Shown: in pieces, positions 4,015-64,000 of the stretch | Numbering within the stretch: the stretch's first letter is position 1 | How the letters are laid out: each line of letters starts with the position of its first letter | IMG/VR virus record: IMGVR_UViG_3300010413_000011 | Span: 28,701 to 92,700 of that record | From: a virus | Reading direction: 5' to 3' (one strand) | Length of the DNA stretch: 64,000 nucleotides | Notes under the pieces: generated by a model | What the model saw: the letters and a program-made list of their open reading frames with translations, nothing else | What the model was told of the DNA's origin: nothing | The model's database searches: none | Position numbers and translations under genes: made by a program

Positions 4015-4047
4015 ATGGGGCCGGCCGTAATGGTCGGCCCCATTTTT
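4015..4047 (+). terminator. Rho-independent terminator between convergent genes
   Basis: A perfect 9-bp stem, ATGGGGCCG (4015-4023) with CGGCCCCAT (4035-4043), is followed by a T run. It ends the rightward unit exactly where the leftward primase-helicase gene stops. Confidence 0.85.
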
Positions 4048-5743: not shown

Positions 5744-6485
5744 TGATTAACCTTTGTGTTCTCGCGTCGAGTTCACCTAAATGTAGTCGCTGTTTGAAAA
5801 TGATATAATCGATTTGTCCAGGACTCGCTGTCCCGTCCTCGAGACAATCCAGAGCCTCAAGGTATTTTCCGTCATCACCTAACTCGAGATCGACAGACTC
5901 GCCGTATTTCAATTTTCGAATTTCATTTTCGATTTTGTCGATCGAAATTAATTGGTTTGGTAAAGGAAATCTACCAAAACTTTTGAATCGTTTGATGTGT
6001 AATCTGATGTAGTCAGCATAAGAAATCCCATGCTCGTCTGCGATCGCTGCCGCCTTGACTAAAAAGTGATATACTTTTGAGGAAGGAGTTATAGGTCTTA
6101 AATGTTTGTTACCCAGGTGTTGAGATCTGAGCAGAGTATAAATTCGATTAAAGTGGTCAACCTTAGATTCTTGACTAACCACCGGCTTCGATGTCACTTC
6201 GAATCTTGCCAAATTGTTTAAGCGGATGGCGACAATGGAGCCATCTCTTCTAATGAGACCAGACTTCCTCAAGGTCTTCATACACCGTTTGGCATCTCTT
6301 AGTTCAATATCTAAAGTACTCGCCCATTCGCTCGCCTTCATTGGGATTTTCGATACGAATCGATATCTCATATACATCGAAACATAGAAAAATCTTGCCT
6401 CCAAAGGTAGGTCAAGTGTGTTTAAAGAGACGACAACTCGTCGAGTTTCAGCTAATACTTTTTCAGATTTCATTGAGATCCTCAT
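5706..6485 (-). CDS. Winged-helix DNA-binding protein, possible replication initiator or loader
   Basis: A 259-aa protein. Residues about 20-90 read as a winged helix (SEWASTLDIELRDAKRCMKTLRKSGLIRRDGS, then a beta wing). The remainder is charged and helical. It lies between a phosphoribosyltransferase and the primase-helicase with overlaps on both sides (23 and 38 bp). A role as initiator or helicase-loading partner is plausible from position, but no loader motif or Walker A is visible. A transcription regulator is the alternative. Confidence 0.6.
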   Translation of the reverse strand: MRISMKSEKVLAETRRVVVSLNTLDLPLEARFFYVSMYMRYRFVSKIPMKASEWASTLDIELRDAKRCMKTLRKSGLIRRDGSIVAIRLNNLARFEVTSKPVVSQESKVDHFNRIYTLLRSQHLGNKHLRPITPSSKVYHFLVKAAAIADEHGISYADYIRLHIKRFKSFGRFPLPNQLISIDKIENEIRKLKYGESVDLELGDDGKYLEALDCLEDGTASPGQIDYIIFKQRLHLGELDARTQRLINGKKKSRRFCKE

Positions 6486-8515: not shown

Positions 8516-9029
8516 CAAAGTAATAGACTTTATAGAAACTGATTTACCAAGGACCTACTATCCCGAAGGTGGGGTCTCTCCTGAACAATTACAACCGAAC
8601 GGAGTCGACTGTCGTTTATTTTTTGTAAGGAGAGTCGACCCGGATCGTATTATGATATTTCGTAAAAATGAGAAGGATGTACCAGAGCTGGAGATGGTCG
8701 AACCTATAATCCATAGGTCCTTTCATGAGCGCGACAAACAACACGCCTTTTTCAATTTGGAACCTGGGGCCTATAATTTTGAAATGGCCGAACGAATAAA
8801 AGTTCCTCAAGGTATTGCGGCAATGTTCTTTGGTCGGAGTACCCTTAACCGAAACGGAATACTCCTTTTGTCGTCGGTCTATGATACGGGTTATGACGGT
8901 AGAATAGGAGGGACGGCGTATGTCTGGCGGCGGATACAAATAGAAATGTTTGTTCGAGTCGGACAAATTGTTTGTTGGGAAGCTCACGAAACGAAGGAGT
9001 ATGACGGTCAATATGGCGACGGAAAGTAA
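8499..9029 (+). CDS. dCTP deaminase/dUTPase-family protein
   Basis: A 176-aa beta-barrel nucleotide hydrolase. It has QPNGVDCR, FFGRSTLNRNGI, YDTGYDGRIGG and a C-terminal GQIVCWEA, all in the order of Dcd/Dut trimers. Such enzymes make dUMP from dCTP or dUTP and feed thymidylate synthesis; ThyX lies 11 kb downstream. The ATG at 8499 is preferred over a TTG at 8475 because GGAG sits 7 nt before it. It overlaps the TGT-like gene by 17 bp. Deaminase and dUTPase cannot be told apart with certainty. Confidence 0.85.
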   Translation: MILPGNKVIDFIETDLPRTYYPEGGVSPEQLQPNGVDCRLFFVRRVDPDRIMIFRKNEKDVPELEMVEPIIHRSFHERDKQHAFFNLEPGAYNFEMAERIKVPQGIAAMFFGRSTLNRNGILLLSSVYDTGYDGRIGGTAYVWRRIQIEMFVRVGQIVCWEAHETKEYDGQYGDGK

Positions 9030-13872: not shown

Positions 13873-14850
13873 ATGTATGGTTATCAAATTTATCTGACCC
13901 ACGGCTGTAATCTGCGGTGTCGGCAATGTGGTGTCTGGAGGGCCAAATCGATCGGTCGGGAAAAACAATGGACCGAATGGGCAGCTATCCTACCGACCAT
14001 GGTCCAGGTTTTCGAGAAAACATTTCATCGGAAACCAGCGTTCAAATTGATGGGAGGCGAACCAACAATTTATCCGGGTTTCGAAGAAGTTTGTAGAGCA
14101 ATTAAAACACTCGGTTGTAATATTTCTGTTCTGTCGAATGTTAGTAAAACCTGGCAGTGGGAAATGTTGACTCGAGTTTTGGGAAAAGGGGATTCAATTT
14201 TCGTTTCAATGGATTTCTTTCCGAATAGAAGGAAACAATATGAGATGAGATCCGATCCGGCAGAAGAGAAGGCTTTTGCTGCCCTCCATTTCATCGAGAC
14301 CTTTCCCGACAACCAAACCGATTTCGAGGTCGGCGTAAATATTACGGTATCTTCGGATACCTTGCCTAGATTATCTGGCCTTATTGATTGTTTGGTTCAG
14401 TTGAACGCTAAGATGAATATTTGTCTTCGGCAAGGCAGCGAACCGAATGAGGACGAACTCTACCACGTTCTTAGGGCACCGAATCGAACTGGCAATTTAA
14501 ACCAGGAGGAGGTCGACCAGTTAGTCAAAATTATGCTATCCGACTTATTGCCAGTTCCAGATCTTTTTCTCGGATCAAAGGAATACATTAGGATAATTCA
14601 GGTTCACGGAGCGAATAACGATTGGCATTGTAGAGATCAACTCCACCTTCCGTATATTTATTTGGATTGCGATGGTTCGGTAATGGCGTGTCCAGACGTC
14701 GCCTTACCAGATCCTCAGGTTTTACCTTTAGCGAGTCCGACTCCTTTTGTTTGGACCGAGAGGATGTTGAAGACCTATCGTGCCAAATGTTGTGGCTGTA
14801 CTATTTCGTCAGCGATGACCGATGTTGTCGCAGCACTCTGGGAGAAATAA
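13873..14850 (+). CDS. Radical SAM enzyme with C-terminal cysteine-rich extension
   Basis: A 325-aa protein. CNLRCRQC (Cys12, 16, 19) is the CX3CX2C motif that binds the SAM-cleaving 4Fe-4S cluster, and LMGGEPT near 61 is the GGE motif. C-terminal cysteines (WHCRDQ, MACPD, KCCGC) resemble a SPASM/twitch domain with an auxiliary cluster. The ATG at 13873 follows AGGGGG; a GTG lies 6 nt upstream. It is followed one base later by the AOR homologue, so they are probably co-translated and work together. It lacks the usual QueE start and length, so 7-carboxy-7-deazaguanine synthase is unlikely. Substrate unknown. Confidence 0.85.
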   Translation: MYGYQIYLTHGCNLRCRQCGVWRAKSIGREKQWTEWAAILPTMVQVFEKTFHRKPAFKLMGGEPTIYPGFEEVCRAIKTLGCNISVLSNVSKTWQWEMLTRVLGKGDSIFVSMDFFPNRRKQYEMRSDPAEEKAFAALHFIETFPDNQTDFEVGVNITVSSDTLPRLSGLIDCLVQLNAKMNICLRQGSEPNEDELYHVLRAPNRTGNLNQEEVDQLVKIMLSDLLPVPDLFLGSKEYIRIIQVHGANNDWHCRDQLHLPYIYLDCDGSVMACPDVALPDPQVLPLASPTPFVWTERMLKTYRAKCCGCTISSAMTDVVAALWEK

Positions 14851-14851
14851 A

Positions 14852-16762
14852 ATGATACTTTCTGCTCCTAAAATTGCCCATATTGGCTTGGACAATCGAG
14901 TTTACCAAACTCATTGCCTTCATCCGAAAAATTTTTTACAATTTTTGGGAGGGCGAGGATTGAACAGTCATCTGACTTTTCAAAACCGCTCTATTAATTT
15001 CCCGATGGTTTTTATTACTCCAGGGTTGTTGACTGGAACTCTGTGTCCATCGTCGTCTCGCTGTACTATTGGTACTAATATATCACCCTCTTTAGGAAGA
15101 TGGGCTGATGGGAATCTCGGAGGATTTTTTGGAGCTGAACTAAGAAGAGCAGGTTGGAATCAAATTTGGTTAGAAGGTATTTCCGAAAAACCTATTTTAA
15201 TATATATTGAAAACCAAAAAATAAAAAGTGTTGACGCTGGTAATCTTTGGGGACTCGGAGTTCATGACACAACTGAGAGAATCCGAGAAGAGTTTGGGCC
15301 GGACGCTCAGTCTCTTGTAATCGGGCCGGCCGGAGAAACCCAGGTCGCGTACGCCTGCGTTATGTCGGGCGATAGAGCGGCAGGAGGAGGCGGTATTGGT
15401 GCCGTCCTCGGGAAAATGAAAGTCAAGGCGATCGTTGTTCGGGGAACTAGAGGTCTTGAACCTGCCCAACCCGAGGAGTTTATGGACGCTTGTCTGGCGG
15501 CTCATAAACAAGTTCGATCGAATCCTTTGTTCGGTGAGTTTTCACAATCTGGTACTTCAATTATTACATCCATTTATAAAGGAGTCAAAGCACTACCGGT
15601 TAATTATTGGGATAAAGGAGATTCGCCACACGCTTACAAATTCGAACCAGGAAATTTGAAGACGAAAGTTGTAAAAAGTCGAGCTTGCTATGGTTGTTCG
15701 ATTCATTGCTCTCATGAACTTACTTTCGGGTTCGAAGGGGTAGAGTACGAGGCGTTGAACGGGCTCGGTCTTAAAATTGGAATCACCGATCTAGACGAAT
15801 GCCTTCGTTTGATAAAATGGTTCAACAACCTGGGTCTCGATGTAGTCCAGACCTCTGGCGTTCTAGGTATGTTGATGAAAATGACCGAAGATGGCTTCGC
15901 GATGAATATGGATCGAATTAAATTTGGAGATGCTGAGGCTATTTGGACGCGAGTTGCTAGTTGGATGGATAGTAGAAGAAGAGATCTCAGTTTTTGGAAT
16001 GGTCTTGACGCCGGGTTCGAAAGATATTCTGAGATATTTCCTCCAGGTCCTGACGGAAATAAGGGCGATGTTCTTAAACGATTCCGTCGAAAGTATTCGG
16101 TCGATATTAAAAATTCAATGCCACCCAGCCTAGACTTCAGGGTTCCAGAAAACTTTGCGGCTACTATTGCTTGTATGACGGCTACTCGAGGCGCTGACCA
16201 TCTTAGAAGTTTGGCACCGATTGAGGCCTACGGTCAGTGGTACGGGAGAGAGGATCTCGAGGCGATGGCTATTCATTTTGGAATACCATCTGATATTATG
16301 AAAGAATGGTTGGACCTGGACGGGTTCGATCCTAAAATAAATTCGAAAAGTATAAGAGGAAAGGTTGCTATCATTTCTTACTTTCAAGATCAAAATGCTG
16401 TGACCGATGCCCTGGGTCTTTGTCGATTCGCCTCAAGTTGGAGAATGGGAGTCGGCCTCGAGTTGATGGCGGAGATGGTTTCGACTTTTCTTGGTATAGA
16501 TATGAACTGGTGTGGCCTGCGAGCAGTGGGCCAGAGGATAACCGTCTTAGAAAGATATCTGAACTCGAAAGTGTACGGCATGAATAAGTTCAGTGATTAT
16601 CCTCCCGAGAAATTTTTCGTAGAGCCTTTGAATGGGAGGAATCAACTCTCACATCATGACGTAAGATCAGCCCGCGATCAGTTCTATGAGTATAACGGAT
16701 ATGACGAGCAGGGATGTCCGACACCGGATACTTTTGAAAAATTAGGATTGGTTGTCAAATGA
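14852..16762 (+). CDS. Aldehyde:ferredoxin oxidoreductase (W/Mo) homologue
   Basis: A 636-aa AOR-family protein, close to the usual length of about 600. The N-domain has GGRGLNSH, TPGLLTGT, LGGFFGAELRRAGW and GDRAAGGGGIGAVLGKMKVKAI. CYGCSIHC (about 280-287) and DALGLCRF (Cys about 523) supply the four 4Fe-4S cysteines, and RGADHLR is the usual active-site stretch. AOR enzymes use a tungsto- or molybdo-bispyranopterin to interconvert aldehydes and carboxylic acids with ferredoxin as electron partner. Pyranopterin synthesis genes are not in the window, so the host would supply the cofactor. The next gene is a polyferredoxin with an ATGA overlap. Confidence 0.92.
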   Translation: MILSAPKIAHIGLDNRVYQTHCLHPKNFLQFLGGRGLNSHLTFQNRSINFPMVFITPGLLTGTLCPSSSRCTIGTNISPSLGRWADGNLGGFFGAELRRAGWNQIWLEGISEKPILIYIENQKIKSVDAGNLWGLGVHDTTERIREEFGPDAQSLVIGPAGETQVAYACVMSGDRAAGGGGIGAVLGKMKVKAIVVRGTRGLEPAQPEEFMDACLAAHKQVRSNPLFGEFSQSGTSIITSIYKGVKALPVNYWDKGDSPHAYKFEPGNLKTKVVKSRACYGCSIHCSHELTFGFEGVEYEALNGLGLKIGITDLDECLRLIKWFNNLGLDVVQTSGVLGMLMKMTEDGFAMNMDRIKFGDAEAIWTRVASWMDSRRRDLSFWNGLDAGFERYSEIFPPGPDGNKGDVLKRFRRKYSVDIKNSMPPSLDFRVPENFAATIACMTATRGADHLRSLAPIEAYGQWYGREDLEAMAIHFGIPSDIMKEWLDLDGFDPKINSKSIRGKVAIISYFQDQNAVTDALGLCRFASSWRMGVGLELMAEMVSTFLGIDMNWCGLRAVGQRITVLERYLNSKVYGMNKFSDYPPEKFFVEPLNGRNQLSHHDVRSARDQFYEYNGYDEQGCPTPDTFEKLGLVVK

Positions 16763-17379
16763 GAAAAGAACGAATTAAAAGTCTATGGAGTCATCTTACA
16801 TCGACACCGGTCGAAATCGTTCGAGGTTTTTCTCGTGCCGTTGTTTTGGTGACAAGGCAGTTAATCCTTTTAGAGAATCCTGTAGAAAGGATCTTACCGA
16901 AGTCAGCGCTCCTCTGTTCTTTTCAGCCTAAAAAACTTTCATACGAAAAGGCTGACTCATACCTGGGTTTCCTCCTAACCAAAAGGATTAGAGTCGATTA
17001 TACTAAATGTACGGGCTGTAAGGCATGCGAGTTGGCGTGCTCTTTAAACCATTACGGACGCTGCGAACCCGAGGAATCGAGAATCAGAATTGACCGACAA
17101 TGTAAAAAGTCGGCAGAGTTCTTTCCTTTCGTTTGTCAACACTGTACGATGCCCGAATGCGTTGTGGTCTGCCCGTCTGGAGCTTGTACGAGAACAAAAG
17201 AAGGTCTCGTAGTCGTAGACCCGGAACTTTGTATTGGTTGTAAACTTTGTATAATCGTTTGTCCGCTGAGTTCAGCGGCATGGAATTGGAGATTAGGTCA
17301 ATCGATGAGATGCGATCTTTGCGAAGGTGAACCGGTCTGTGTCAAGGTTTGCTCGACTAAGGCCATCGATTTTCATTGA
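16759..17379 (+). CDS. Four-cluster ferredoxin-type electron-transfer subunit
   Basis: A 206-aa protein. After an 80-residue N-terminus come CTGCKACELAC, CQHCTMPECVVVC, CIGCKLCIIVC and CDLCEGEPVCVKVC: sixteen cysteines for four 4Fe-4S clusters in the HycB/DmsB arrangement. Such subunits are known partners of AOR-type and molybdopterin enzymes. ATGA overlap with the AOR gene points to fixed stoichiometry. The first 80 residues (basic, LVTRQLILLENP) are not part of the ferredoxin fold and may dock onto the AOR homologue. No export signal is evident, so cytoplasmic. Confidence 0.93.
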   Translation: MRKERIKSLWSHLTSTPVEIVRGFSRAVVLVTRQLILLENPVERILPKSALLCSFQPKKLSYEKADSYLGFLLTKRIRVDYTKCTGCKACELACSLNHYGRCEPEESRIRIDRQCKKSAEFFPFVCQHCTMPECVVVCPSGACTRTKEGLVVVDPELCIGCKLCIIVCPLSSAAWNWRLGQSMRCDLCEGEPVCVKVCSTKAIDFH

Positions 17380-17390
17380 GGAGATAGATC

Positions 17391-17651
17391 ATGGTAGAAA
17401 CAGAGCAACAAAAAGTCTATGAGGCTCTAGTTGGTTTAGGATATATTTACGGAGTGAATTGCGCACTAGAGCATATAGGCATTGACCATCGAATAATGCC
17501 AGAACAGGATGACGAGAAAGAAGGAATACTCTATCCTTGGTACGATAAAGGACCATCGGGACAAATGGAAAAGAAATTAAAACAATTGGCAAGTAATTTG
17601 GTTCAAGATGGAATTTCAGTAGCTGACGTGGAACAATGGGGTTCGTTTTGA
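17391..17651 (+). CDS. Hypothetical protein in AOR/UbiD cassette
   Basis: An 86-aa protein I do not recognise. It is acidic with a GLGYIYGVNCALEHIG stretch and one cysteine. AGGAG lies 11 nt before the ATG. It sits between the ferredoxin and UbiD genes with short gaps, so it is expected to belong to the same pathway. No metal motif or membrane segment is present. Confidence 0.7.
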   Translation: MVETEQQKVYEALVGLGYIYGVNCALEHIGIDHRIMPEQDDEKEGILYPWYDKGPSGQMEKKLKQLASNLVQDGISVADVEQWGSF

Positions 17652-17679
17652 TCCCTAAAGGTCAAAGAAGGAGAAGATT

Positions 17680-19257
17680 ATGAAATGGAATGAAGGAATC
17701 TTTAAGGCAAGAGAATTTCCAGACGAGCCGTTGAGTATGTTTTCTTGCCTAGCGGAATTGTGTAATTCGCAACCATCGGTCCCCTGGAATTATGCTGGTC
17801 GAATGATTCGAGTAACCGAAAAAGTTTCGATCGACTACGAGATAATGAAATTCGTTCGCGCTTCGGCTGACGATCCCTCTGGATTTAGCCCCGGGTTCAT
17901 ATTCGAGAATGTTTCGAGTGAGATGGCACCAGATCCGAAAACGACTCGATATCCAATCTCTGTTGTCGCTGGAATGTATGGAACCGAGGCACGAGTAAGT
18001 CGTATATTGGATTGGTGTTTAGGAACCAAAGAAAAATTCGACTTAAGTACTCCGGCCTGGCGAAAATATCAGCGAGCGTTGAACAGAACGTCACATGGCG
18101 TGGTTCGGATTTTTCCCGAAAGAGACGACTTAGGTCATGTATACGACATTCGATACGAACTCCAAGACCTTCCGATTTGTCTTCACAACGAAAGAGACGG
18201 AGGTCGATTCATCACCGGAGGTGTCCAGATCGTCTGGGATCCGGAATTCGAATGTTATGTCTCTGGTATTCACCGAATGAAGGTCATCGATAAAAATACT
18301 CTCGGGTGTTTGGCTACCGGCGAAAGAAGGATCGGTAGAGCGATAATGAAATGGCATGAACGAGGATTTAAGGCACCTGTTATTACATTAATAGGAGCCG
18401 CACCTTGCGACGTTTTCGCGTCTCAAGCCAAAGTACCTCATAACACGGATAAGTATGCTGTCGCAGATCGCTTCACACCCGGAAACGAGAAGAGAGATTT
18501 TTGTGGTTGGACTCCTTCCAAACATGCGAAATACGCTCCCGACCACTTACATATTATCCCTACAGATTCTGAAATTGTTATTTTGGGATTAGTTCCATTA
18601 GGCGAACCGAACAAACCAAACCTTATTAACGACAACCCGTTTGGGGAATTTCCTGGTACCTATTCCTTTTCGAATACTTCCGCGGCTTGGAGAGTAGAAG
18701 TAGAATATGTTATGACCAGATCCGACGCACCGATCTATCAAACCATGACCACCGGATTCCCTGTGCTCGAGGATCATATTCTTTGTGGCACGGCGAATGT
18801 TCCTTACCTCTTCGAAATTCTTCAAAGAGCCTGTTCAGAAGTGGTCGATATTAGCTTGGGAAAAGAAGGCAACTATGTTTTCGATGCTCACGTTTCCATT
18901 AAAAAGAGAATGTCTGGCGAAGCGCGCAATGTTATTTTAGCAGCGCTCTCGACCGTCACTATAAAAAGTGTTTGGATATACGACGACGACATCGACGTTC
19001 ATAATCCTCGTGACCGGCAGTTCGCATGGAACACGAGATACCAGCCTGCGACCGATACAATTATTATTGGCCATCCTTTGGTTGGTTCGAGTCTCGATCC
19101 ATCTTGTCCTGTCTTTCGGCACACGACTAAGGTAGGTTTTGACTGTACCAAACCTTTAGGTCAGGAGGATCGATACAAAAAGGCTTTGTGGCCAAAGGAT
19201 GAAATAGAAATCTATTCGAAAAAAGTACTCGATTTAATCGATAAGTGGGAGGACTAA
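17680..19257 (+). CDS. ubiD: UbiD-family prenyl-FMN-dependent (de)carboxylase
   Basis: A 525-aa protein, the usual UbiD length. Landmarks: SGIHRMKV (about 193-200; its Arg aligns with the catalytic Arg of Fdc1), GAAPCDVFAS, TDSEIVILG, NPFGEFPGTYS (about 317-327; catalytic Glu kept), SIKKRMSGEARNV, IYDDDIDVHNPRDRQFAW and TKVGFDCTKP. The usual metal-binding Asn before the Arg and the first Glu of the GxxGE region appear replaced (Val and Asp by my alignment), which may change substrate or cofactor geometry. UbiD enzymes reversibly remove CO2 from aromatic or unsaturated acids. GGAGAAG precedes the ATG. The UbiX that would make its cofactor is at 60385. Confidence 0.92.
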   Translation: MKWNEGIFKAREFPDEPLSMFSCLAELCNSQPSVPWNYAGRMIRVTEKVSIDYEIMKFVRASADDPSGFSPGFIFENVSSEMAPDPKTTRYPISVVAGMYGTEARVSRILDWCLGTKEKFDLSTPAWRKYQRALNRTSHGVVRIFPERDDLGHVYDIRYELQDLPICLHNERDGGRFITGGVQIVWDPEFECYVSGIHRMKVIDKNTLGCLATGERRIGRAIMKWHERGFKAPVITLIGAAPCDVFASQAKVPHNTDKYAVADRFTPGNEKRDFCGWTPSKHAKYAPDHLHIIPTDSEIVILGLVPLGEPNKPNLINDNPFGEFPGTYSFSNTSAAWRVEVEYVMTRSDAPIYQTMTTGFPVLEDHILCGTANVPYLFEILQRACSEVVDISLGKEGNYVFDAHVSIKKRMSGEARNVILAALSTVTIKSVWIYDDDIDVHNPRDRQFAWNTRYQPATDTIIIGHPLVGSSLDPSCPVFRHTTKVGFDCTKPLGQEDRYKKALWPKDEIEIYSKKVLDLIDKWED

Positions 19258-20649: not shown

Positions 20650-20825
20650 AAGTAGTCGCAACACAACTAAAACTCGAGAACATAGAAATTCTCCACAATG
20701 CGAAGAAGGGAGATACGCTCTCCCTAAAAATAATTAATACGCAGGAAGTGCCACTTGATGAAGACGGACTCGACCCAGACAGCTGTCTCTTGGTTCTCTT
20801 CGGACGATTGGGAACCGGGAACTAA
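20646..20825 (+). CDS. Small hypothetical protein coupled to ThyX
   Basis: A 59-aa ORF starting in an ATGA overlap with the ThyX stop. The sequence (KVVATQLKLENIEILHNAKKGDTLSLKIIN) predicts beta strands. Its last 68 bp overlap the start chosen for the next gene, so either this ORF or the far N-terminus of that gene may be wrong. Confidence 0.45.
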   Translation: MKVVATQLKLENIEILHNAKKGDTLSLKIINTQEVPLDEDGLDPDSCLLVLFGRLGTGN

Positions 20826-21897
20826 CGATAGAATAGGTTTTGAAAAAGTTTGCAATAAAGGAGTGCGCCGAGACACTTACAACGGTTTATACTTTAAGGG
20901 TGGATCAGGCGCCTCTGAATTTTTCAAAACCGAGCCAGATCAAAAGCAGATCAAAATTCATCGAACCAAGATCTTCTTAACCACTACTCGAGCACAACAC
21001 ATGTGGGGCCTTCTCGACGCGAACTACCCTTACATTTTAATGTCGTTTTGGTACTACAAGACCGTGACAAATGTTTTCGGTTCCCTCCGGAATGCCTTTG
21101 CTGCTCGAGATAAAAACATCGACGATTTCGAAATTATGGTAGATAGCGGCTCGTACAGTGCTACGGTCAAAGGTACCTCGGTAGATCTGGATACTTATAT
21201 TGAATGGCTCTACCACGAAGAGGATAATGTCGATTGGTATGTTAACCTCGATACTCAGTTCAAACCAGAAGAGGGACTTCGAAACTGGGCGATCCTTTGT
21301 GCGAACGGATTACATGACGCCATTCATGTCCACCATAGACCAGAGCCTTGGAAGTACTGGGATATTATAGCAGATCATTGTGGAGAGTTTGGAGGTCTTA
21401 GTCCGATGCCTCGAGCAAAGAGAGGCGTTAAACTCGAGTACTTTACCAAAGCTCATTCAATGCACCCACAGAAGAAACTTCATTGGTTTGGCTCTGTCGA
21501 TAAAGAGTTGGCCAAAATGTTCGATGTATATTCTATGGACTGCTCGAGTGCTGACGCGGTCGCTTATCGCGGGATTGTTTGGACTCCTTGGGGAGCGGTT
21601 AACCTGGGTTTTAACCCGAACTACAGTAATCACATTGATCGCTTACCTCTTGACATCCGCTCTAAGGTCACCGAATGGTTTATGACACATGGTTTTGAGC
21701 TTCATGATTTAAGGCCCGGGAGACCCTATATGCCTTCGCATAGATTCAGAATTTATTTCAACGCACTGGGTTATCTCGCGTCCATGGTCGAGATTGAAAA
21801 AGAGAAAAGTTTAATTGAGTTACCAGATCCAGAATGGATTCGGTCTTCGGAAATTTATACTAATTATGAAAGTGAGTTACCAAAAGGATGGAAGTGA
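20758..21897 (+). CDS. TGT/DpdA-like TIM-barrel protein, copy 2
   Basis: A 379-aa protein. Landmarks: IMVDSGSYSATVKG, WYVNLDTQFKPE, DAIHVHHRPEPWKYW, GGLSPMPRAK, KLHWFGSVDKEL and YSMDCSSADA. They fit the tRNA-guanine transglycosylase superfamily and resemble phage DpdA proteins, which place 7-deazaguanine derivatives into DNA. It shares most of these blocks with the 22121 gene, so the two are paralogues. It has about 35 extra N-terminal residues; the ATG at 20758 follows AGGAAG. The zinc-site cysteines of bacterial TGT are not evident. The substrate (RNA or DNA) is unproven. Confidence 0.72.
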   Translation: MKTDSTQTAVSWFSSDDWEPGTNDRIGFEKVCNKGVRRDTYNGLYFKGGSGASEFFKTEPDQKQIKIHRTKIFLTTTRAQHMWGLLDANYPYILMSFWYYKTVTNVFGSLRNAFAARDKNIDDFEIMVDSGSYSATVKGTSVDLDTYIEWLYHEEDNVDWYVNLDTQFKPEEGLRNWAILCANGLHDAIHVHHRPEPWKYWDIIADHCGEFGGLSPMPRAKRGVKLEYFTKAHSMHPQKKLHWFGSVDKELAKMFDVYSMDCSSADAVAYRGIVWTPWGAVNLGFNPNYSNHIDRLPLDIRSKVTEWFMTHGFELHDLRPGRPYMPSHRFRIYFNALGYLASMVEIEKEKSLIELPDPEWIRSSEIYTNYESELPKGWK

Positions 21898-34540: not shown

Positions 34541-34858
34541 ATGGCAAGTATAACAGATGTCGCTCGTGAGGCTGGCGTCAAAAGAGATGATGTAAAGAAA
34601 GTGATGAACGCTATCACCGGTATCGTTCGCAGGGGCGAACGGGTCACTTTCAAAGAGTTCGGCACCTTCTTTCCCAGGACCAGGAAGGCCAGGACTGCGC
34701 GGAACCCGAGGACGGGAGACTCCGTCAAGGTCCCGTCCAAAACCAAGATGGCATTCCGGACCAAGGTCGAGTTGAAAGACACGGCCAAGAAAAAGAAGGG
34801 AAAAAAGAAGCTCACCAAAGAGAAGGCCAAAAAGGCCGGCAAGAAAAAGAAGAAGTAA
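34541..34858 (+). CDS. HU/IHF-family DNA-bending protein
   Basis: A 105-aa protein. The N-half MASITDVAREAGVKRDDVKKVMNA and the arm ARNPRTGDSVKVPSK are HU hallmarks. A lysine-rich tail extends it past the normal 90 residues. It would bend and compact phage DNA or help at an origin. GGAGG precedes the ATG and a terminator follows. Confidence 0.92.
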   Translation: MASITDVAREAGVKRDDVKKVMNAITGIVRRGERVTFKEFGTFFPRTRKARTARNPRTGDSVKVPSKTKMAFRTKVELKDTAKKKKGKKKLTKEKAKKAGKKKKK

Positions 34859-43185: not shown

Positions 43186-44484
43186 TCATTTCCTCCAATA
43201 TTCTCGTAATGCTATTTGAGTACACCGTTCTTGAAATTGAGCACCGGTGTCACCCTCTCCGTCTTTCACAGTCGACTCGATTAAATATTCGCAATCTTCC
43301 AAAATTCTTTTTCCAATTTTTCTTCTACATGCTTCATCCAGCTCTTTCAATTCCAAAGAGACATCAATTCGTCCTGGTCGACTAGAAATATTAGTTCCAT
43401 TTTTTATTTCTGAAGTCCCCAAAGCGGGATCTAATGTTTCGATTCGGTTTGAAGTGACGACAGTAAAAATCCCATCAGATCTCTCTACGCCATCCAGACA
43501 ATTTAGAAGACTACCAAACGAAAGTTTGTCTTTCATACTATTTCCTTCATAGACATTCTTTCGTCCTTCAAAAACGTTATCGATGTCTTCCATTAAAACA
43601 ATACATGGAGTATTCCTCGCCGCCCTCCGCCATCCATCCAACAATTCTTCGTTTGTTAGAGTAGCCAAATCTAAAATGAAAATTGGAATATCTAAGGACT
43701 CTGCGATTGCTCGAGTCAAAGAAGTTTTTCCGGTTCCTGGTTTTCCGTAGAGCAACCATCCTCGTTTCCACGGAATACCTTTACTACGATACCATTGTTC
43801 ACTATCCTTCCATTTTTTGATATCGTCGATTACAACTTCGACATTTTTGGGAAACGCTAATATGTTTATTTCTTTATCTTTATAATCGAACTCGTATCCG
43901 AGATCGTCGAGTGTCCATTTAAGGAGTCGAGCTTCTCCGCGTTCGATAGCTCCTTCATCGCTGCTACTTGCTGTTTTATTGAGCGGCGATTCCTCATCTC
44001 TATTATTTCGACCAAAAAGATAAGAGATTCGGAATCTACGATTATTAAAAACCGATTTAGTTTTTTCATTATAAAAATCTAAAGCATCGATGATAAATTG
44101 ATCGGAATCTATCGTTCCTCGGATAACTGTAATTTTTAAATCCTCATCTCCTCCATTCTTATCAGTTTGTCTATGTATTAAAATAGGACGCCATTCGTCG
44201 AAAAAAATTAAAAGATTATTTCCAATCAATTCAAATCCGACTAATCGTCTCGTTTTAAGAGGACGAACATATCGGTCGTCGCATTGGTACGATCGATCGC
44301 CGATCGGAAGTCTCCAATAATTATTCCAACAATAAGACGATACAGCTTTCGCTGCATCATATCGGACTCCGAAAGTCACGAATACGAGACTCGTTATTTG
44401 ATTCAAGAGTTGTTTCGATCGCTGCCAAAACGTTCCTACGACTCCCGCAAACACTCCTGCTCCTAATAGTGTCGTCGTCTCCAT
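43186..44484 (-). CDS. BCS1-like AAA+ ATPase
   Basis: A 432-aa protein. An N-terminal hydrophobic stretch (LLGAGVFAGVVGTFW) precedes a BCS1-type domain, then the AAA+ core: LLYGKPGTGKTSL (Walker A), CIVLMEDIDNVF (Walker B), TSNRIETLDPAL (sensor 1) and SSRPGRIDVSLEL (arginine finger). Mitochondrial BCS1 moves folded Rieske protein across the inner membrane; bacterial and viral relatives are of unknown function. It may remodel a membrane-bound complex. AAGGAGG precedes the ATG. Confidence 0.85.
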   Translation of the reverse strand: METTTLLGAGVFAGVVGTFWQRSKQLLNQITSLVFVTFGVRYDAAKAVSSYCWNNYWRLPIGDRSYQCDDRYVRPLKTRRLVGFELIGNNLLIFFDEWRPILIHRQTDKNGGDEDLKITVIRGTIDSDQFIIDALDFYNEKTKSVFNNRRFRISYLFGRNNRDEESPLNKTASSSDEGAIERGEARLLKWTLDDLGYEFDYKDKEINILAFPKNVEVVIDDIKKWKDSEQWYRSKGIPWKRGWLLYGKPGTGKTSLTRAIAESLDIPIFILDLATLTNEELLDGWRRAARNTPCIVLMEDIDNVFEGRKNVYEGNSMKDKLSFGSLLNCLDGVERSDGIFTVVTSNRIETLDPALGTSEIKNGTNISSRPGRIDVSLELKELDEACRRKIGKRILEDCEYLIESTVKDGEGDTGAQFQERCTQIALREYWRK

Positions 44485-47827: not shown

Positions 47828-48720
47828 CCCTCGACCTCCCTTCATCAAACAAAAATAAAACTGTCGGGTGCCAAAACCCAACGCAATACCCAGACTGGAA
47901 ACAAACAAAACCCTAGGCGCCGTAACTCTCAACTCATTAATCGTTCCAGTCTCCAACTGCACAATAAAACAAAATAATAGCCATCAAAGTTCTACCCTAA
48001 GATTCGTAGGTCATCTAAAACAAAAATGATTCCAGTCAAACAAAAGTAAGTCAGGTACCCAAAGCAAAGAATCCCGACCACCGGAAACTGGAAAATATAT
48101 AGAAGTCGAATAGCGAAAAAGGGAGGCAGGGTAGAGGAGGGCAGAGAGAGTAGGTAGATATATAGTACTTGTATAGAGCCAGTAGTCACTAGTGCCTATT
48201 CCAGGAGCCCGGGAGCCGAACAATAAAGTATTCCTGCTTACTGCCGAGTCTATACGAACACGTATACTTCGACCACACTCGAATGGCGTGCGCCCGGCTG
48301 ACTTCGGTTCCATGCGAACCAGAGCGTATTGCAGTTGGAATACACTGGCAAGTTGCAGTATAGTCGGAGCTAGAGCGTATTGCAGTTCGAATACTCTCTA
48401 CCTTCGGTCTGCCCTTCCCTAGAGCCGCAGACTATAATTATCGATAATTAAATATACTGGATAGATAGTTGGAACGACAAGTACTGGAACTTGTGGACAA
48501 TGCATTATTAGCTAGTTTTGTTGTTCGTCTCTAGGGTGGATCTCGCGGTACTGGCAATATGGTGCAGTCTGGGTGGCGCCCCGGGCCTCGTGGATCCGTA
48601 CGATTGCACCTCTGCCATCTCCTCTTAAACTGCAGATCCTTGACAATTAACCAGAAGTAGATTTTGGAATACGAATACTGCAATTGCAGTTATTTACCTA
48701 CGAACTAAATTGGATATTCG
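47828..48720. other. Gene-free stretch, left flank of the repeat region
   Basis: No credible gene. Holds AGAGCGTATTGCAGTT twice (near 48321 and 48372), an inverted-looking pair of GACTGGA/TCCAGTC, and a perfect 16-bp palindrome TAATTATCGATAATTA near 48434-48449. A 25-bp copy of a sequence at 52345 lies at 48673-48697. Leftward promoter signals are expected but unclear. Confidence 0.6.
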
Positions 48721-49817
48721 AGGCGCATGAAACCGGAGTCATCTGGTCATTTCGTTGTTCGGGTTTCGATCTGAATCTGCAGTATTTTCTCGGATTCCGA
48801 TTTTTCGATTTTGGAATTGGCATAGATCCGGACCCATCTGCTCATTTTGTATAACTGACTCGAGTCAAGGTATGGACGAGTTTGTAAAATAAAAGGCGCA
48901 TGGAACCGGACCCAAATCGAAATTTTGTTGTTCTGCCTCCTATCTGATATTGCAGTATTTTCTCGGATTTCCATTTTCTAATAATTGAAATGGCATGGAT
49001 CCGGACTCATCTCGGACTTTTGTTGTTCTGACGGAAATAGTGGATATTGCAGTATTCCGATGAGTGGGAGAGTCCGGTTCTATGCCAAACCTATAATTCG
49101 GTATTTTGAGGGGTGAACTAAATTTACAAATAGAGGTCGCATAGAACCGGACTCTCCTTGAAATTTCGTTGTTCTGGTTCGCATCTGATCTTGCAGTGTT
49201 TTCTCGGATTTCCATTTTCTAATAATCCAAATGGCATGGAACCGGAGTCTCCTGGTCAAAACGTGTTGCTGCCGAATTGTGTCTCATTTGCACTCTACTG
49301 CATTCTTCGGTTTTATTAGAAGTCAACCGGAATTTGAGGAGATACGGGGAGACTCGAAGTCCTGCACAATTTGGCAGAACGAGATTTTGTAATATGAATA
49401 CTGCAATTCCACTAATTTAGTTGGTCGCAGATTGTCAAAATAAAGTCGCATAGAACCGGACCGAGATCAGAATTTCGTTGTTCTGGTTCGCATCTGATCT
49501 TGCAGTGTTTTCTCCGATTTGACTTTTTGGATTATTGAAATGGCATGGAACCGGACCCTCCCGGTCATTTTGTATAACTGACTCGACTCTCAAGAGTGGA
49601 GGAGATTTGGAAATTGAGGTCGCATAGAACTGGACTCTCCCGGTCATTTCGTTGTCCGGGTTCCTATCTGATATTGCAGTACTTTTTGCAATTTGGGATT
49701 TCTAATAATCCAAATGGCATGGAACCGGACCCAAACGGGCATTTCGTTGTTCTGACGGATATTGCTGAAATTGCAGTATTCTCATGACCAGATGAGTCCA
49801 CTTCTATGCGGGCCGGC

Positions 49818-50641
49818 TAAGTGCATCAATAACAGCATACTGCACTTCTTCCACAACTTACCCTATACTAATTATAGGTTTATCTTCGCCAAATCTCGAA
49901 CGATAAATGACCAGGAGATGCGGTAGGTACCGCACTTCGAGAAATCTATAAGTCGGCCTCCACCGAGATCCGCGACGATAACTTACGATTTCAACAAAAT
50001 GCGGTAGGTACCGCACCAGATAACAATTGTCGAGATCTCAAAAGACTTATTAAGTCAAATTCTCACTTTCTGCGGTAGGTACCGCAATCCGGTTTATCTG
50101 GATAGTCGGCCTCGGGCGAGAATGGTCACGATAACCCTAAAATTCCATCTCCTGCGGTACCTATGCGCCCAGATAACAATTGTCGTAATTTGAGAAGACT
50201 TGTCAAGTTAAATGACCGGAAAGGCCCGGAGGTACCGCATCCGTGGAATCTGGGTTGGCGACCTCCGGCGAGATCTCCCAAGTTTCCCATAGTTTTCTAT
50301 AAAATGCGGTAGGTATGCGACTAGATACCAATTGTCGTAATTTTTCAAGACTTGAGCGATAAAGTCTCATCTCCTGCGGTAGGTACCGCAGCCACCGAAA
50401 CTGCTCGCGTCACAATTGTCGAAATCCTCTGCGATTCACCCAAAGTCTAATTAAATGCGGTAGGTACCGCAATAGATTCGACTTTTGAGATCCCAAACAA
50501 ACTCTAGTGGATAAAGTGCACTTTTCTCGGAATCGCTGAAGTCTTCTAAAAAAACTGCACAAGATCCACCATAAGTTAAACCCATAATTAGTCCAGGGTA
50601 AATACCGATAGAAGTGCAGTATGCTGTTATTGATGCACTTA
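49818..50641. repeat. Long inverted repeats enclosing the 16-mer array
   Basis: 49818-49849 is a perfect 32-bp complement of 50610-50641. Similarity continues inward, imperfectly, to 49884 and 50575. The 824-bp block has no ORF. It resembles a palindrome-bounded origin or centromere module, or a small mobile element without a transposase. Confidence 0.8.
49919..50471. repeat. Array of eight 16-bp palindromic boxes at alternating 81/71-bp steps
   Basis: The box is TGCGGTAGGTACCGCA. Copies start at 49919, 50000, 50071, 50153, 50224, 50305, 50375 and 50456; those at 50153, 50224 and 50305 are degenerate. Steps are 81, 71, 82, 71, 81, 70, 81. Short intervals share AGATAACAATTGTCG. Three of the four long intervals share a GTCGGCCTC...CGAG-type core. 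So four copies of a unit of about 152 bp exist. A ninth near-match is at 51346. Iterons of a replication origin or partition site are likely. Confidence 0.85.
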
Positions 50642-51099
50642 CCTCCGAATGACAAAATGAGGAGATGACTCCGGTTCTATGCGAGGTCGGAATAAATAAA
50701 CTGCAATTCCAGTATATTAGTTGTGAACGAGATTTGGAAATTGAGGGTGCATAGAACCGGACCCATCTCGGAATTCTGTTGTTCTGCCTTCGATCTGTTC
50801 TTACAGTACTTTTTGCAATTTGGGATTTCTAATAATTCAAATGGCATAGATCCGGACTCTCCTGGTCATTTCGTTGTTCTGACGTAAGACTCCGAGAATG
50901 CAGTATTCGTATGCCGCGCTAGGTCCCTATCTATGCCAATCCAATATTCTAACACTGACCCAATCTCAAAAGTCAAGGCGCATAGAACCGGACTCAAATC
51001 GGAATTTCGTTGTCCGGGTTCCTATTTGATATTGCAGTACTTTTTGCAATTCCACTTTCTTGAAAAATAAAATGGCATGGAACCGGACCCATCTGGTCA

Positions 51100-52486
51100 A
51101 AACCTTGTTCTGCCGAATTGTCAAGAATCTGCAGTCTCCCGAGAGAGGCTCCTCCAACATACGTACGGATCCAGTGGTCTCGGGCCACCCGGTAGACTGC
51201 AGATCCTTAAGGCTCACTGCAGATCCGGTCATGGTCTGCAGTTCAAATCTAGCCAATACTGCATTGTCACAAGTATCAGTGGCTTAGGTATTATAATTAT
51301 ATTTAATTAATATCGACTGGATACTAATTATAAGTGCCAGTCTAGTCCGGTAGGTACCGCAGATCCTCGGACTATTCGAACTCCAATACAGTATCGTTGG
51401 ATATAGGAATAAAAATAATCTTCTGCCCAGGGCAGGCAGAGGAAATCAATAGTATACGAAGTCCGATCCAGTCCGACTCCAATCGAACAACCTAGAACAA
51501 AAGGTATCCAGGGCTAGGTCGCATAGTACCGGAGCTACATCGATCGTATCGTGTTGGCATTGGAAAAAGAATATTTTTCTTTTACTTCGAGGGTCGGCCC
51601 TGGAGACGAAGGCCCCTGGCAGGTTCTTTGGTCAAGGAATGGATCGCTATCTGTCGGGTTAGTTGCAAATTCCTACAATAGATTTTCTCGGAGATCGACT
51701 TGATAGAAAAATTTTTGCAATATATTTTCCAGGGGACAGGCCCGAGGACTAGTGACTGCCCTTCTATGTCTGCCCGAGGCACTACCGACTACTCTTTTTT
51801 TACTCGAGTCCCCAGGGCTCGGACAGTATTCGCCTGCCTATATGGGGTTATTCCGGATCCGGTTTAGAGTTTGTATTCCATTCCGTTCGGAGTATTCAGT
51901 TGTGAGTATTTATTCCTGCATATTGGAACTGGAATATGCAGTATTGCATAACTGGCTAGTGCAGGTTTGATGCGGGGTAGAGCCGAATGCAGTATTGGAA
52001 GGCCTATACAGTGAAATCTTAAAGAAGAACTTGTGGAATATCTGATAGTTACAGTAAAGTTTGTGGAATTAGGCGCTTATAAACTTGATTGGAAGTGCAG
52101 TGATTTACAGAGGGTACCCAATTCGACGAAGTCTCTTGCATTTTAAGGGGTTCTTTTGAGTCCGACTTGGCCCCTAAACTACTGGAATTGCAGTATCTGG
52201 GTTTGAGGGGCTAGGGGAGGGTGGCCTTTTTGTCGAATTAAGGGAGATCTCGAGTCTGGGGCGGGCGGCTCGGTCGCAGGTTTGGTCGATTGGAGGTCGG
52301 AGAGAGTCGCTGTTTGTCGCAATTTGGCTGAAATGGAAATACTGGAATACTGCAATTGCAGTTATTTACGTTCGAAATGGATTTTGAGGTCGACTGTAAG
52401 TTGCAGTGTTTCCAGTAGAACTTCGGTTTTTGGCCTTTTTGACCCTTTTGTCTAGGGGTACGGCTAAGATCCTATAAAACTTTTTT
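51100..52486. other. Gene-free right part of the repeat region
   Basis: No credible gene. Contains scattered CTGCAGATCC, a ninth array-type box (51346-51361), an AT-rich block near 51290-51332 like one near 48431, and at 52345-52369 an exact copy of 48673-48697. Remaining sequence shows no pattern I can explain. Confidence 0.55.
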
Positions 52487-52573
52487 CCAGTAAATAGTGG
52501 ATATTGCAGTATTCGTAGAAATCTCTTAAAAAGTTTTTATAAAAAAACACTGCAATATCCACTATTTGGTCAT
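52487..52573. repeat. 87-bp hairpin element, copy 1
   Basis: Outer arms AAATAGTGGATATTGCAGT (52492-52510) and its complement (52549-52567) give a 19-bp stem. An inner AAAAAGTTTTT can pair. Identical to 53488-53574. It lies upstream of a promoter. Confidence 0.85.
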
Positions 52574-52626
52574 CGAAAATCTGCACTATTTCGTTCATAA
52601 AAGTACTAGTTTACAAGTCGCCGAAT

Positions 52627-52654
52627 TTGTCTTTTTAAAAATGTATGCTACCAT
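52627..52654 (+). promoter_or_regulatory. Rightward promoter with near-zero leader
   Basis: TTGTCT (52627-52632), 16-bp spacer and TACCAT (52649-52654). The predicted start is near 52661, 3 nt before ATG 52664. It resembles the promoter at 53628 in motif and in lying downstream of the hairpin element. Confidence 0.5.
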
Positions 52655-52663
52655 AGCCTCATA

Positions 52664-53333: not shown

Positions 53334-53487
53334 CCACTAATCCACTATATATAGAGCAGCCCGATATTTGGAGATACTGGAAAATACGAACAAAAAGATC
53401 TACTGCAAATTCGATTGGAACTTCCAATACTTCTGGTCGATTTTGGTCAAGGTCGAAAAATGGTCTATTCTCTCAAAAAAGATTTAT

Positions 53488-53574
53488 CCAGTAAATAGTG
53501 GATATTGCAGTATTCGTAGAAATCTCTTAAAAAGTTTTTATAAAAAAACACTGCAATATCCACTATTTGGTCAT
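53488..53574. repeat. 87-bp hairpin element, copy 2
   Basis: Exact copy of 52487-52573, 1,001 bp away in the same orientation. The 53289-53662 stretch has no gene: it holds the terminator, this element and the next promoter. Confidence 0.88.
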
Positions 53575-53627
53575 TAAGAAATCGGCGAAATTTGTTCGAT
53601 GATTGCAGTATTTACAAGAGCCCCGAC

Positions 53628-53655
53628 TTGACTTTTTCAATAAAATCAGTATCAT
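53628..53655 (+). promoter_or_regulatory. Rightward promoter with near-zero leader
   Basis: TTGACT (53628-53633), 16-bp spacer and TATCAT (53650-53655). The predicted +1 is about 53662, next to ATG 53663. No SD. Confidence 0.6.
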
Positions 53656-60257: not shown

Positions 60258-60416
60258 ATGTCGGACCTACAATCGTTACGACATTCTGAACGCGAACAGC
60301 GCGCTATCAATTCGATAATGTCGGCGTACGAAGAGTATTTAACTCTCTCGCCGATTGAGTTAACCGAAGAAGAGGAGAAGATTGATGAAGATTGGGATTG
60401 CGATAACAGGTGCTAG
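60258..60416 (+). CDS. 52-aa acidic protein
   Basis: SEREQRAINSIMSAYEEYL, then ELTEEEEKIDEDWDCDNRC. GAGGAGGTC precedes the ATG. It overlaps the UbiX start by 32 bp, so the two are probably coupled. Confidence 0.6.
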   Translation: MSDLQSLRHSEREQRAINSIMSAYEEYLTLSPIELTEEEEKIDEDWDCDNRC

Positions 60417-60999
60417 TGGTCAAATCTACGCGTATAGACTTTTGCGCCTGCTCGAGAAGCATATCTTGACCGGTTGGCAAATCTCGGTCGTTGTTTCCGA
60501 GACCGCATTCAAGATTATGCACTTAGAAGGAGTTCCGTGGAAATATATCAAATATATTGAGAAGGAAAGACCTCAGATTGTAAGGCATAACATCAAGGAC
60601 TTCACCGCTCCAATCGCCTCGGGCTCTTATGGCCTCGATTGTCTCATTGTCATACCTTGCACTGTCGGTGCCCTGGGTCGCATTGCTAGTGGAGTTTGCG
60701 ACGACCTTATCACTCGGGCGGCTCACGTCCAACTAAAAGACCGAAGAAAACTAATTGTAGTATTGAGGGAAACACCCTTAAATTTGATCGATATACGAAA
60801 TATGGAGACGGTGACTTTGGCGGGTGGAATTATAATGCCAGCATCGCCCGGATTATATTTAGTTCAACATCGAGTTGGTTGTATTGTTCGCGGAGACGTT
60901 ACCTTCGAAGAAGTGGCTGACAAATTTGTTGAACGAGTCTGGGATATAGCACGGTTACCGGATATAGGACAAAAGAGATGGGGTGAAAACAATGGCTAG
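60385..60999 (+). CDS. ubiX: UbiX-type flavin prenyltransferase
   Basis: A 204-aa flavoprotein. IGIAITGASGQIYAYRLL (FMN site), VVVSETAFKIM, APIASGSYGLDCLIVIPCTVGALGRIASGVCDDLI, KDRRKLIVVLRETPLNLIDIRNM and IIMPASPGLY match UbiX/PAD1 from end to end. UbiX joins dimethylallyl phosphate to FMN to make the prenyl-FMN used only by UbiD enzymes, so this gene is strong evidence that the UbiD at 17680 is active. GAGGAG lies 7 nt before the ATG. The two genes are far apart and in different transcription runs. Confidence 0.95.
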   Translation: MKIGIAITGASGQIYAYRLLRLLEKHILTGWQISVVVSETAFKIMHLEGVPWKYIKYIEKERPQIVRHNIKDFTAPIASGSYGLDCLIVIPCTVGALGRIASGVCDDLITRAAHVQLKDRRKLIVVLRETPLNLIDIRNMETVTLAGGIIMPASPGLYLVQHRVGCIVRGDVTFEEVADKFVERVWDIARLPDIGQKRWGENNG

Positions 61000-61608: not shown

Positions 61609-62274
61609 ATGAAATTCAGTAAAAATGATAAAGGTCTTCCACCCATCGATTATATGGCTCTCCGGCGGCTCGAAAGTCGGCTGGCTAATTGTCAAGGATG
61701 TGCGCTCTCCCACACGCGAACCAATCCTGTGTTGATGAGGAGCAATAGACTCGAGCAGGGTGGTATTCTACTTATAGGGGAGGCCCCAGGCCGGAATGAA
61801 GATGAAGTCGGGGTACCCTTTATTGGTAGGGCTGGACAAAGATTAAACAAAATTCTTTATAAGCATCAGGACGTTCCTTATCAAATTGCCAATGCAGTCT
61901 GTTGTCGTCCTCCGAAGAATCGAACTCCTGACGAATTTGAAGTTGAGACTTGTTTATTTCATTTAAGGCTCTTGATTTCTATTCTTCAACCTCGTATCCT
62001 AATATGCCTAGGACGAGTTGCTGCATTCTCTCTGTTCGCGTTATTTCATAGTCAAGCCAAATTTCAAGGCGACAGTATTAAATTGATAGGTCCGATTTCA
62101 GTAACACGGTCAGAAGTCAACGCGATCCAAATGAATGATAAAGTGATTCGGCATTGGTTGAGAACTTGGCATCCGTCATTCGTAATGAAACCTTGGAACA
62201 AGGATAAGTTCGGTCCTTATTTCGACGAGGATATAAATATTGCTTTCGATTATTGGAGAAGATGGTATGGCTAA
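61609..62274 (+). CDS. Stand-alone family-4 uracil-DNA glycosylase
   Basis: A 221-aa protein. CQGC near the start, ILLIGEAPGRNEDEVGVPFIGRAG, NAVCCRPPKNRTP, ETCLFH and TWHPS are family-4 UDG blocks, with four cysteines for a 4Fe-4S cluster. It removes uracil from DNA. This is a second UDG beside the domain fused to the polymerase. Overlaps the next gene by 8 bp. Confidence 0.92.
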   Translation: MKFSKNDKGLPPIDYMALRRLESRLANCQGCALSHTRTNPVLMRSNRLEQGGILLIGEAPGRNEDEVGVPFIGRAGQRLNKILYKHQDVPYQIANAVCCRPPKNRTPDEFEVETCLFHLRLLISILQPRILICLGRVAAFSLFALFHSQAKFQGDSIKLIGPISVTRSEVNAIQMNDKVIRHWLRTWHPSFVMKPWNKDKFGPYFDEDINIAFDYWRRWYG

Positions 62275-62980: not shown

Positions 62981-64000
62981 ATGGGGCGACGGCTCACTAA
63001 CTATCAACTCTCAACGAACGATGACTTGCCAAGCAGGTTATTGTTGGCGTACCGCACTAGGAATGAGTTACTTCGGCATCTTATTCTTCAACAAAAACGC
63101 GCTGACATTCTTTATCGAAAAATTCTCGGGCTTACTTTAAAACCATTTCATCTAACAATGATGAATCATAGCTTGGGCCGTAAAACCTCTCTTACGTTAG
63201 CACCCCGCGGATTCGGTAAGTCAACGATCTTAACCATTGCCTTTAACGTTTTTAAAATTCTTCAAAATCCTAACATTCGAATTCTAATAGCTTCAAAAAC
63301 CGATAAACAAGCTGAGAAATTTTTAAGGGAAATTAAAGCCTTCCTAAAGTTGCCTTCCTTGGTTGAGGTTTTCGGAGATCAGGTTGGAGAGAAATGGGAC
63401 ACAAGAGAGATAATCGTTCGCGGTCGAACTAGAATCGCCAAGGAACCAACGGTATCGACCGTCGGTGTGGCAGGTTCGGTTGTTGGTGGCCATTACGATA
63501 TAGTGATTAAGGATGACCTGGTGGAGGAACAAAACTCGAGGACTGAAACCCAACGAAAACAACTGTTAACCTGGTATCAAAAAGTTCTGGAACCTTGTAT
63601 CGAGCCTTGGGGAATCGATCAAACTGTTGGTACTCGTTATCACCCCGACGATCTTTACGGTCATCTTATTCGAACTCAATTTCGGAAGGCGAAGAAAAAA
63701 GGTTACCTTCGGATCGGGCCTTTTGATAAAGACGGAAATAGTATTTGGCCAGAGCGATATACAGTTGATTATTTAAAAAAGAAAAAAGGTCGAATCGGAA
63801 TTACAAATTTTATGTCTCAGTACCATAACGATACTAGTTTTATGGAGGGCGATTTCTTTTCAGCTGATGATTTTCTCTTCTACGATTTCCCACCACCGAA
63901 TCTGAAAGTATTCCAGGGAGTTGATCTAGCAATCAGGCAAACAGAGAAGGCAAGTCGGTTCGCAACAGTAACGATAGGAATCGATGAACCTAAAGAAGAT
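62981..64000 (+). CDS. Large terminase subunit, truncated by the window end
   Basis: 340 codons are visible and no stop occurs before 64000. The ATPase has APRGFGKSTI (Walker A) and YDIVIKDDLV (Walker B), and IRILIASKTDKQA and VGTRYHPDDL follow the family pattern. The nuclease domain begins with FQGVDLAI. It should pump DNA into proheads and cut concatemers. Start is ATG at the predicted transcript start; no SD. Confidence 0.95.
   Translation, partial: MGRRLTNYQLSTNDDLPSRLLLAYRTRNELLRHLILQQKRADILYRKILGLTLKPFHLTMMNHSLGRKTSLTLAPRGFGKSTILTIAFNVFKILQNPNIRILIASKTDKQAEKFLREIKAFLKLPSLVEVFGDQVGEKWDTREIIVRGRTRIAKEPTVSTVGVAGSVVGGHYDIVIKDDLVEEQNSRTETQRKQLLTWYQKVLEPCIEPWGIDQTVGTRYHPDDLYGHLIRTQFRKAKKKGYLRIGPFDKDGNSIWPERYTVDYLKKKKGRIGITNFMSQYHNDTSFMEGDFFSADDFLFYDFPPPNLKVFQGVDLAIRQTEKASRFATVTIGIDEPKED

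Follow-up and report, generated by a model that had tools for sequence, protein, structure and literature searches.

What is the function of a regularly spaced series of short inverted repeats in the genome of a phage? A sequence-only reading of a 64,000-nucleotide stretch of viral DNA (the window; bases 28701-92700 of a 92.7-kb virus record) had pointed out eight palindromic 16-mers between 49919 and 50471, set at alternating 81/71-bp steps, and had likened them to the iterons of an origin or to a centromere. The source of the DNA is an unclassified 93-kb tailed bacteriophage. To our knowledge, few origins have been mapped in large lytic phages with T4-like replication proteins, and the locus offers a compact, sharply defined origin candidate, in which the box, the spacing, and the possible binder and melting sites can all be named. 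Here we describe the repeats, the region around them and the genes of the phage, and we weigh the readings that they allow. Positions are those of the window.

The K-box array and its spacing

All eight 16-mers were found where the sequence-only reading had placed them. The repeated element, which we call the K box, is TGCGGTAGGTACCGCA (TGCGGTA-GG-TACCGCA), a 16-bp site with 7-bp inverted arms around a central GG; it is an inverted repeat of the form 7-2-7 and not the perfect palindrome that had been described. Five of the boxes are exact (K boxes 1, 2, 3, 7 and 8 at 49919-49934, 50000-50015, 50071-50086, 50375-50390 and 50456-50471, all on the plus strand). The three in the middle are half decayed, and each retains one intact half: K box 4 (50153-50168, minus strand; TGCGGTA-CC-TATGCGC) keeps its left half and has CC at the centre, the inverted orientation, K box 5 (50224-50239, plus strand; GCCCGGA-GG-TACCGCA) keeps the right half, GGTACCGCA, and K box 6 (50305-50320, plus strand; TGCGGTA-GG-TATGCGA) keeps the left half, TGCGGTAGGTA. 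Seven of the eight face the same way. K box 9 (TCCGGTAGGTACCGCA, one mismatch) lies outside the array at 51346-51361 (plus strand), 12 bp from the right one of two AT-rich islands described below.

The array is far beyond chance. With up to three mismatches allowed, 13 K-box matches were counted on both strands of the window, against 0.12 expected from shuffles, and the most frequent 12-mer in the region occurred in six copies, against at most three in each of 200 first-order Markov shuffles. Several direct copies of one short site thus stand within one non-coding interval, as in iteron arrays, and the 7-2-7 inverted repeat is as would be expected for the site of a dimeric DNA-binding protein. 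A CRISPR array, which the earlier reading had already discounted, was rejected: the boxes are 16 bp long rather than repeats of 20-50 bp, and the spacers are homologous to one another rather than unique.

The steps between successive K boxes were 81, 71, 82, 71, 81, 70 and 81 bp. The alternation of 81- and 71-bp steps with a two-step period of about 152 bp is therefore real, and the degenerate boxes do keep the spacing, with step lengths varying by 1 bp only. The steps alternate because the array is a degenerate tandem repeat of a composite unit of ~152 bp, each unit containing two boxes and two different spacers. The B spacers were 65-69% alike, with CAGATAACAATTGTCG and AAGACTT common to them, and the A spacers were 37-58% alike, with GTCGGCCTC and, further on, CGAGA in three of the four; alignments of paired A spacers had at most one gap column. 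Because the exact boxes agree at 16 of 16 positions and the step lengths have held, against spacers that now share only 37-69% identity, the comparison argues for constraint on both the K box and its spacing.

At 10.5 bp per turn, 81 bp corresponds to 7.7 turns and 71 bp to 6.8 turns. The two steps differ by about one helical turn, so that the rotation from box to box would be nearly constant. The "unusual alternating phase" proposed earlier was consequently abandoned: at this helical repeat the alternation brings no change of DNA face, and it reflects tandem duplication of a two-box unit.

The surrounding non-coding region

The interval first given for the array does contain it but is too narrow, the array being the core of a 4.7-kb non-coding repeat region (47963-52663). 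This region separates a leftward operon, whose first gene has its 5' end at 47962, from a rightward operon, whose first gene starts at 52664; both diverging operons are early-type. The leftward operon also includes an AAA ATPase gene (43186-44484), the product of which matches phrog_7485, a family of unknown function. No ORF of more than 100 aa was found in 47963-52663, the stop-free runs were like those in shuffles, and the mismatches between the R units described below were without codon periodicity; coding potential was rejected for lack of any coding signature. The window holds only this one large non-coding region; no other ORF-free stretch in the window or the comparator loci is as long or as repetitive.

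Two pairs of inverted arms were found. The inner arms, 49818-49886 (plus strand) and 50573-50641 (minus strand), frame the core and are 86% complementary over 69 bp. The outer arms, 48380-48690 (minus strand) and 51080-51390 (plus strand), match at 58% over 302 aligned bp. The symmetry centres lie at ~49.88 kb for the outer arms and at ~50.23 kb for the inner arms. Each outer arm contains an AT-rich island, at 48432-48492 on the left and at 51274-51334 on the right; of all 60-bp segments of the record, only two are less stable than the right island, which shares its arm with K box 9. The islands are ~0.8-1.5 kb from the array, and the array core, at 46-64% AT, is not AT-rich.

Two other families of sites accompany the K boxes. 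The R unit is a pair of GCATRGAWCCGGAC boxes (also given as GCATRGAACCGGA), and all seven units lie outside the core, five on the left (48725-49790, plus strand; box starts 48725/48820, 48898/48993, 49139/49234, 49448/49543 and 49622/49717) and two on the right (50749-51148, plus strand; box starts 50749/50844 and 50980/51075). The distance within the pair is exactly 95 bp, or about nine helical turns, in seven of seven units, and the distances between units range from 78 to more than 1000 bp. The C box, TTGCAGTATT / AATACTGCAA (also written ATACTGCAAT), occurs in either orientation, often inside a longer imperfect palindrome. About 36 C boxes with ACTGCA cores are spread over 48330-52554, and 36 such cores were counted in the non-coding region versus 11 in the remaining ~88 kb of the record. 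None was found at 49845-50553, and so none lies within the K-box array. DnaA-box-like sites were not enriched in the region.

GC skew changes from -0.26 to +0.33 across the non-coding region, and the third-position coding-strand skew of the genes declines with distance from it (rho -0.45, with a p-value that treats neighbouring genes as independent). Both trends agree with an origin, yet gene direction and transcription confound them. Because skew follows gene direction, GC skew was not taken to prove an origin.

Genes of the phage and the search for relatives

The left end of the record carries portal, head and tail genes. A portal gene opens this end, and a terminase-like gene (62981-64000), named from its sequence and position and not by family search, is truncated by the right end. 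From these two ends, the record is probably a near-complete tailed-phage genome that was opened inside the terminase-like gene and lacks part of it.

The phage encodes a DnaB-type helicase with Toprim/CHC2 primase parts (4046-5743, minus strand). Further replication and repair genes encode a gp32-like SSB, RecA/UvsX, an SbcC-like protein, RuvC and a 5'-3' exonuclease, and a UvsW-like helicase, a UvsY-like protein and a sigma-factor-like protein are present as well. PolA is fused to an N-terminal uracil-DNA-glycosylase domain (8950-11613); a second glycosylase-like protein, read from its sequence, is encoded at 61609-62274 and has a GEAPG motif. An HU-like protein (34541-34858, plus strand) may be an architectural partner at the array.

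The phage also carries an auxiliary gene set that is uncommon for a phage. A full-length aldehyde ferredoxin oxidoreductase, a ferredoxin-like 4Fe-4S protein and a UbiD-type decarboxylase are encoded at 14822-19257, with an adjoining radical SAM protein, and a UbiX-like flavoprotein, recognised by its sequence only, is encoded at 60382-60999. A queuine tRNA-ribosyltransferase-like protein (20755-21897) could serve 7-deazaguanine DNA modification.

A protein of 259 aa with a winged helix at its N terminus (5706-6485, minus strand) is the candidate initiator. Its gene lies in a small leftward operon among rightward genes, and it was chosen because it overlaps the start of the helicase-primase gene; judging from this neighbourhood, the protein is perhaps the K-box binder. 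Its match to Pfam HTH_Crp_2 (E=0.0017) was below the cut-off. In a model made without an alignment, the wHTH part reached a pLDDT of ~70-83, with an overall pLDDT of 46 (low confidence), and a fold search with this model returned weak wHTH matches, none of them significant. No homologue of the protein was detected in the searches.

At the sensitivity used, no homologous array was found in IMG/VR, in phage or plasmid collections or in GTDB genomes, and blastn of the non-coding region gave no match in phages or plasmids. The exact K-box 16-mer was present as a single copy in each of 13 other viral contigs, which by our own estimate is no more than chance for a collection of this size. The 17-base C-box pattern gave 18 scattered single matches, at loci without enrichment. 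Relatives at 45-56% of the capsid protein had almost only virion genes in common with the phage and no such array, and searches by the AAA ATPase, a 169-aa early protein, the DNA polymerase and the winged-helix protein yielded no usable relatives. The closest primase-helicases (28%) were those of Tunturi_3 and Tunturi_4. These cultured Acidobacteriota phages have gene-free stretches of 1.7 kb (Tunturi_3, L150:28677-30336) and 2.4 kb (Tunturi_4, L148:14453-16824); the repeats in these gaps were unrelated to those described here, and the gaps do not lie between diverging genes.

Replication origin or transcription control

We put the chances at about even that the K array is the core of an iteron-type replication origin, within a region that combines an origin with the control of divergent transcription. 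This is the best-supported reading, and it draws on the architecture, constraint, symmetry and position of the locus and on the precedent of the PLE satellite. The phage has its own helicase-primase, PolA, gp32-like SSB, RecA/UvsX and HU, which we counted in its favour together with the divergent-operon setting, the skew switch, the inverted arms and the paired AT islands. The likeness to origin iterons seen by the sequence-only reading is partly borne out, in that it fits the non-coding setting between divergent operons, the skew, the islands and the constraint. Several points were counted against an origin. The core is not AT-rich and has its islands at a distance, DnaA-box-like sites are not enriched, neither Rep_3 nor DnaA was found in the phage record, no known initiator family was recognised, and no homologous array was found at the sensitivity used. 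Classical iterons, at 17-22 bp, are closely packed, and the replication set of the phage is T4-like; T4 itself starts replication by way of R-loops and recombination and does without iterons.

From the boxes, spacing, constraint, symmetry, non-coding setting and gene content established here, we infer the following course of protein binding, melting and replication start. A dimeric initiator, most likely phage-encoded and perhaps the 5706-6485 protein, would bind the 16-bp K boxes cooperatively, the array being its predicted binding core. The fixed 71/81-bp spacing would let the bound dimers assemble into a regularly wrapped complex, in which the phage HU might take part, and the resulting strain would melt one of the two AT-rich islands in the outer arms, 0.8-1.5 kb off, of which the right one has its own K box. 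The phage DnaB-primase would then be loaded, and replication would proceed outward. The C boxes may act on the transcription of the two diverging early-type operons, perhaps on primer transcripts, and the R units may have an architectural or regulatory role. A bolder version appears unlikely to us. In it, the locus would be a bidirectional phage origin-enhancer of a new class, built as an imperfect palindrome of 3 kb and fired by a new winged-helix initiator. Paired 16-bp boxes, each turned from the last by a constant angle of roughly three quarters of a helical turn, would wrap around the initiator, and they would be flanked by a mirror-image pair of AT-rich melting sites and by two more families of paired sites.

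The strongest rival to the origin reading is a purely transcriptional role. Less likely than an origin, in our judgement, is that the whole region serves to control transcription, with the K, R and C boxes as operators or enhancers at which regulators of the phage or the host would switch the two diverging early-type operons; the K array would then bind a repressor or activator cooperatively and would not start replication. The region does lie between divergent operons, and dimeric regulators typically have operators of this kind, inverted repeats of 16 bp. Before the first rightward gene, a module at 52476-52639 (plus strand) contains an inverted pair of C boxes (52492-52567) followed by a sigma70-like promoter, TTGTCT-16-TACCAT. 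An 84% copy of this module precedes the next transcription unit (53477-53640), with a second sigma70-like promoter, TTGACT-16-TATCAT, near 53.63 kb; both promoters were read by eye. Since inverted C-box pairs stand 60-135 bp upstream of these two promoters of rightward genes, a part in transcription is probable for the C boxes at least, and by extension the whole region could be transcriptional. In addition, each outer arm carries an outward-facing promoter-like match (51266, plus strand, and 48480, minus strand). On the other hand, sigma70-like sites were not enriched in the non-coding region (10 versus 9.6 expected), and the K boxes are missing from the other promoters of the phage, the genes nearest to them being ~2 kb off. 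Nor would an ordinary promoter need as many as eight or nine copies at a fixed spacing of 70-82 bp.

It is quite improbable that the boxes form an architectural or anchoring site, at which a phage protein would condense or tether the genome in a centromere-like, nucleoid or packaging role. Three site types occur in many copies across 4.7 kb, an HU is encoded, and the parS sites of ParB are likewise 16-bp palindromes. Yet ParB_N (PF02195), ParA-type AAA_31 (PF13614) and a tyrosine integrase had no match in the 92.7-kb record, with positive controls for the two Par families, so that the record gives no sign of a plasmid-like or lysogenic state that would call for partition. A ParABS centromere was rejected for want of PF02195 and PF13614 matches, and the earlier comparison with a centromere is weakened accordingly. 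A pac site at 50 kb is unlikely, since the terminase-like genes lie at the end of the contig, at a distance of more than 10 kb.

Less probable still is a decaying tandem duplication without present function, left over from a mobile repeat: the three boxes in the middle have degenerated and the 152-bp units have strongly diverged, but five letter-perfect boxes stand beside spacers of 37-69% identity with steps held to +/-1 bp, and neutral decay would not have spared boxes and steps together. That the repeats encode a structured RNA or a set of small RNAs is barely credible, for despite small inverted repeats in the R units (ACCGGA..TCCGGT), covariation did not back the consensus fold of the seven units (covariation term +0.17, with a single compensated pair) and an Rfam search gave no meaningful match.

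Comparison with known systems

The hrs of baculoviruses are intergenic repeats with an imperfect palindrome that have been described as both origins and transcription enhancers; there are several per genome, with 30-bp palindromes bound by IE-1 (PMC6669502). The phage region is similar to them in architecture only, and the viruses are unrelated. The iterons of theta plasmids (RK2, P1, F, R6K) are 17-22 bp long and bind monomers of Rep proteins from known families (PMC4980987). As in these origins, a short site is repeated in one direction within a small interval, and the region includes an AT-rich element. The boxes of the phage differ in being dimer-like inverted repeats set 70-80 bp apart, and the search for a Rep_3 gene found none.

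The origin of lambda has four inverted-repeat iterons, about two turns apart, inside the O gene, and an AT-rich tract adjoins them. The O protein is a winged-helix initiator that binds as dimers, and its gene lies beside that for helicase loading. The phage is comparable in its inverted-repeat sites and in the overlap of a winged-helix gene with the helicase-primase gene; it differs in that its array is stand-alone and non-coding and has a far larger spacing.

In the PLE satellite of Vibrio cholerae, divergent operons are separated by 2.7 kb of non-coding DNA that contains four families of repeats. RepA binds one of these, a semi-palindromic repeat, which replication requires, other parts being dispensable (PMC7145576). 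This repeat 3 comprises three iterons of ~30 bp, 14-16 bp apart, the initiator belongs to RepA_N, and replication relies on the replication proteins of a large lytic phage (PMC7145576, PMC8263062). In contrast to PLE, the phage has 16-bp boxes, eight in number, that form paired units with steps of 70-82 bp; no RepA was recognised, and the region, with its three box families, measures 4.7 kb. Both have a long non-coding region between diverging operons and several repeat families, one of them semi-palindromic. If the origin reading is correct, an iteron-like start would operate alongside replication proteins that are otherwise T4-like, and one 4.7-kb unit would house both the control of transcription and the start of replication, as in the satellite.
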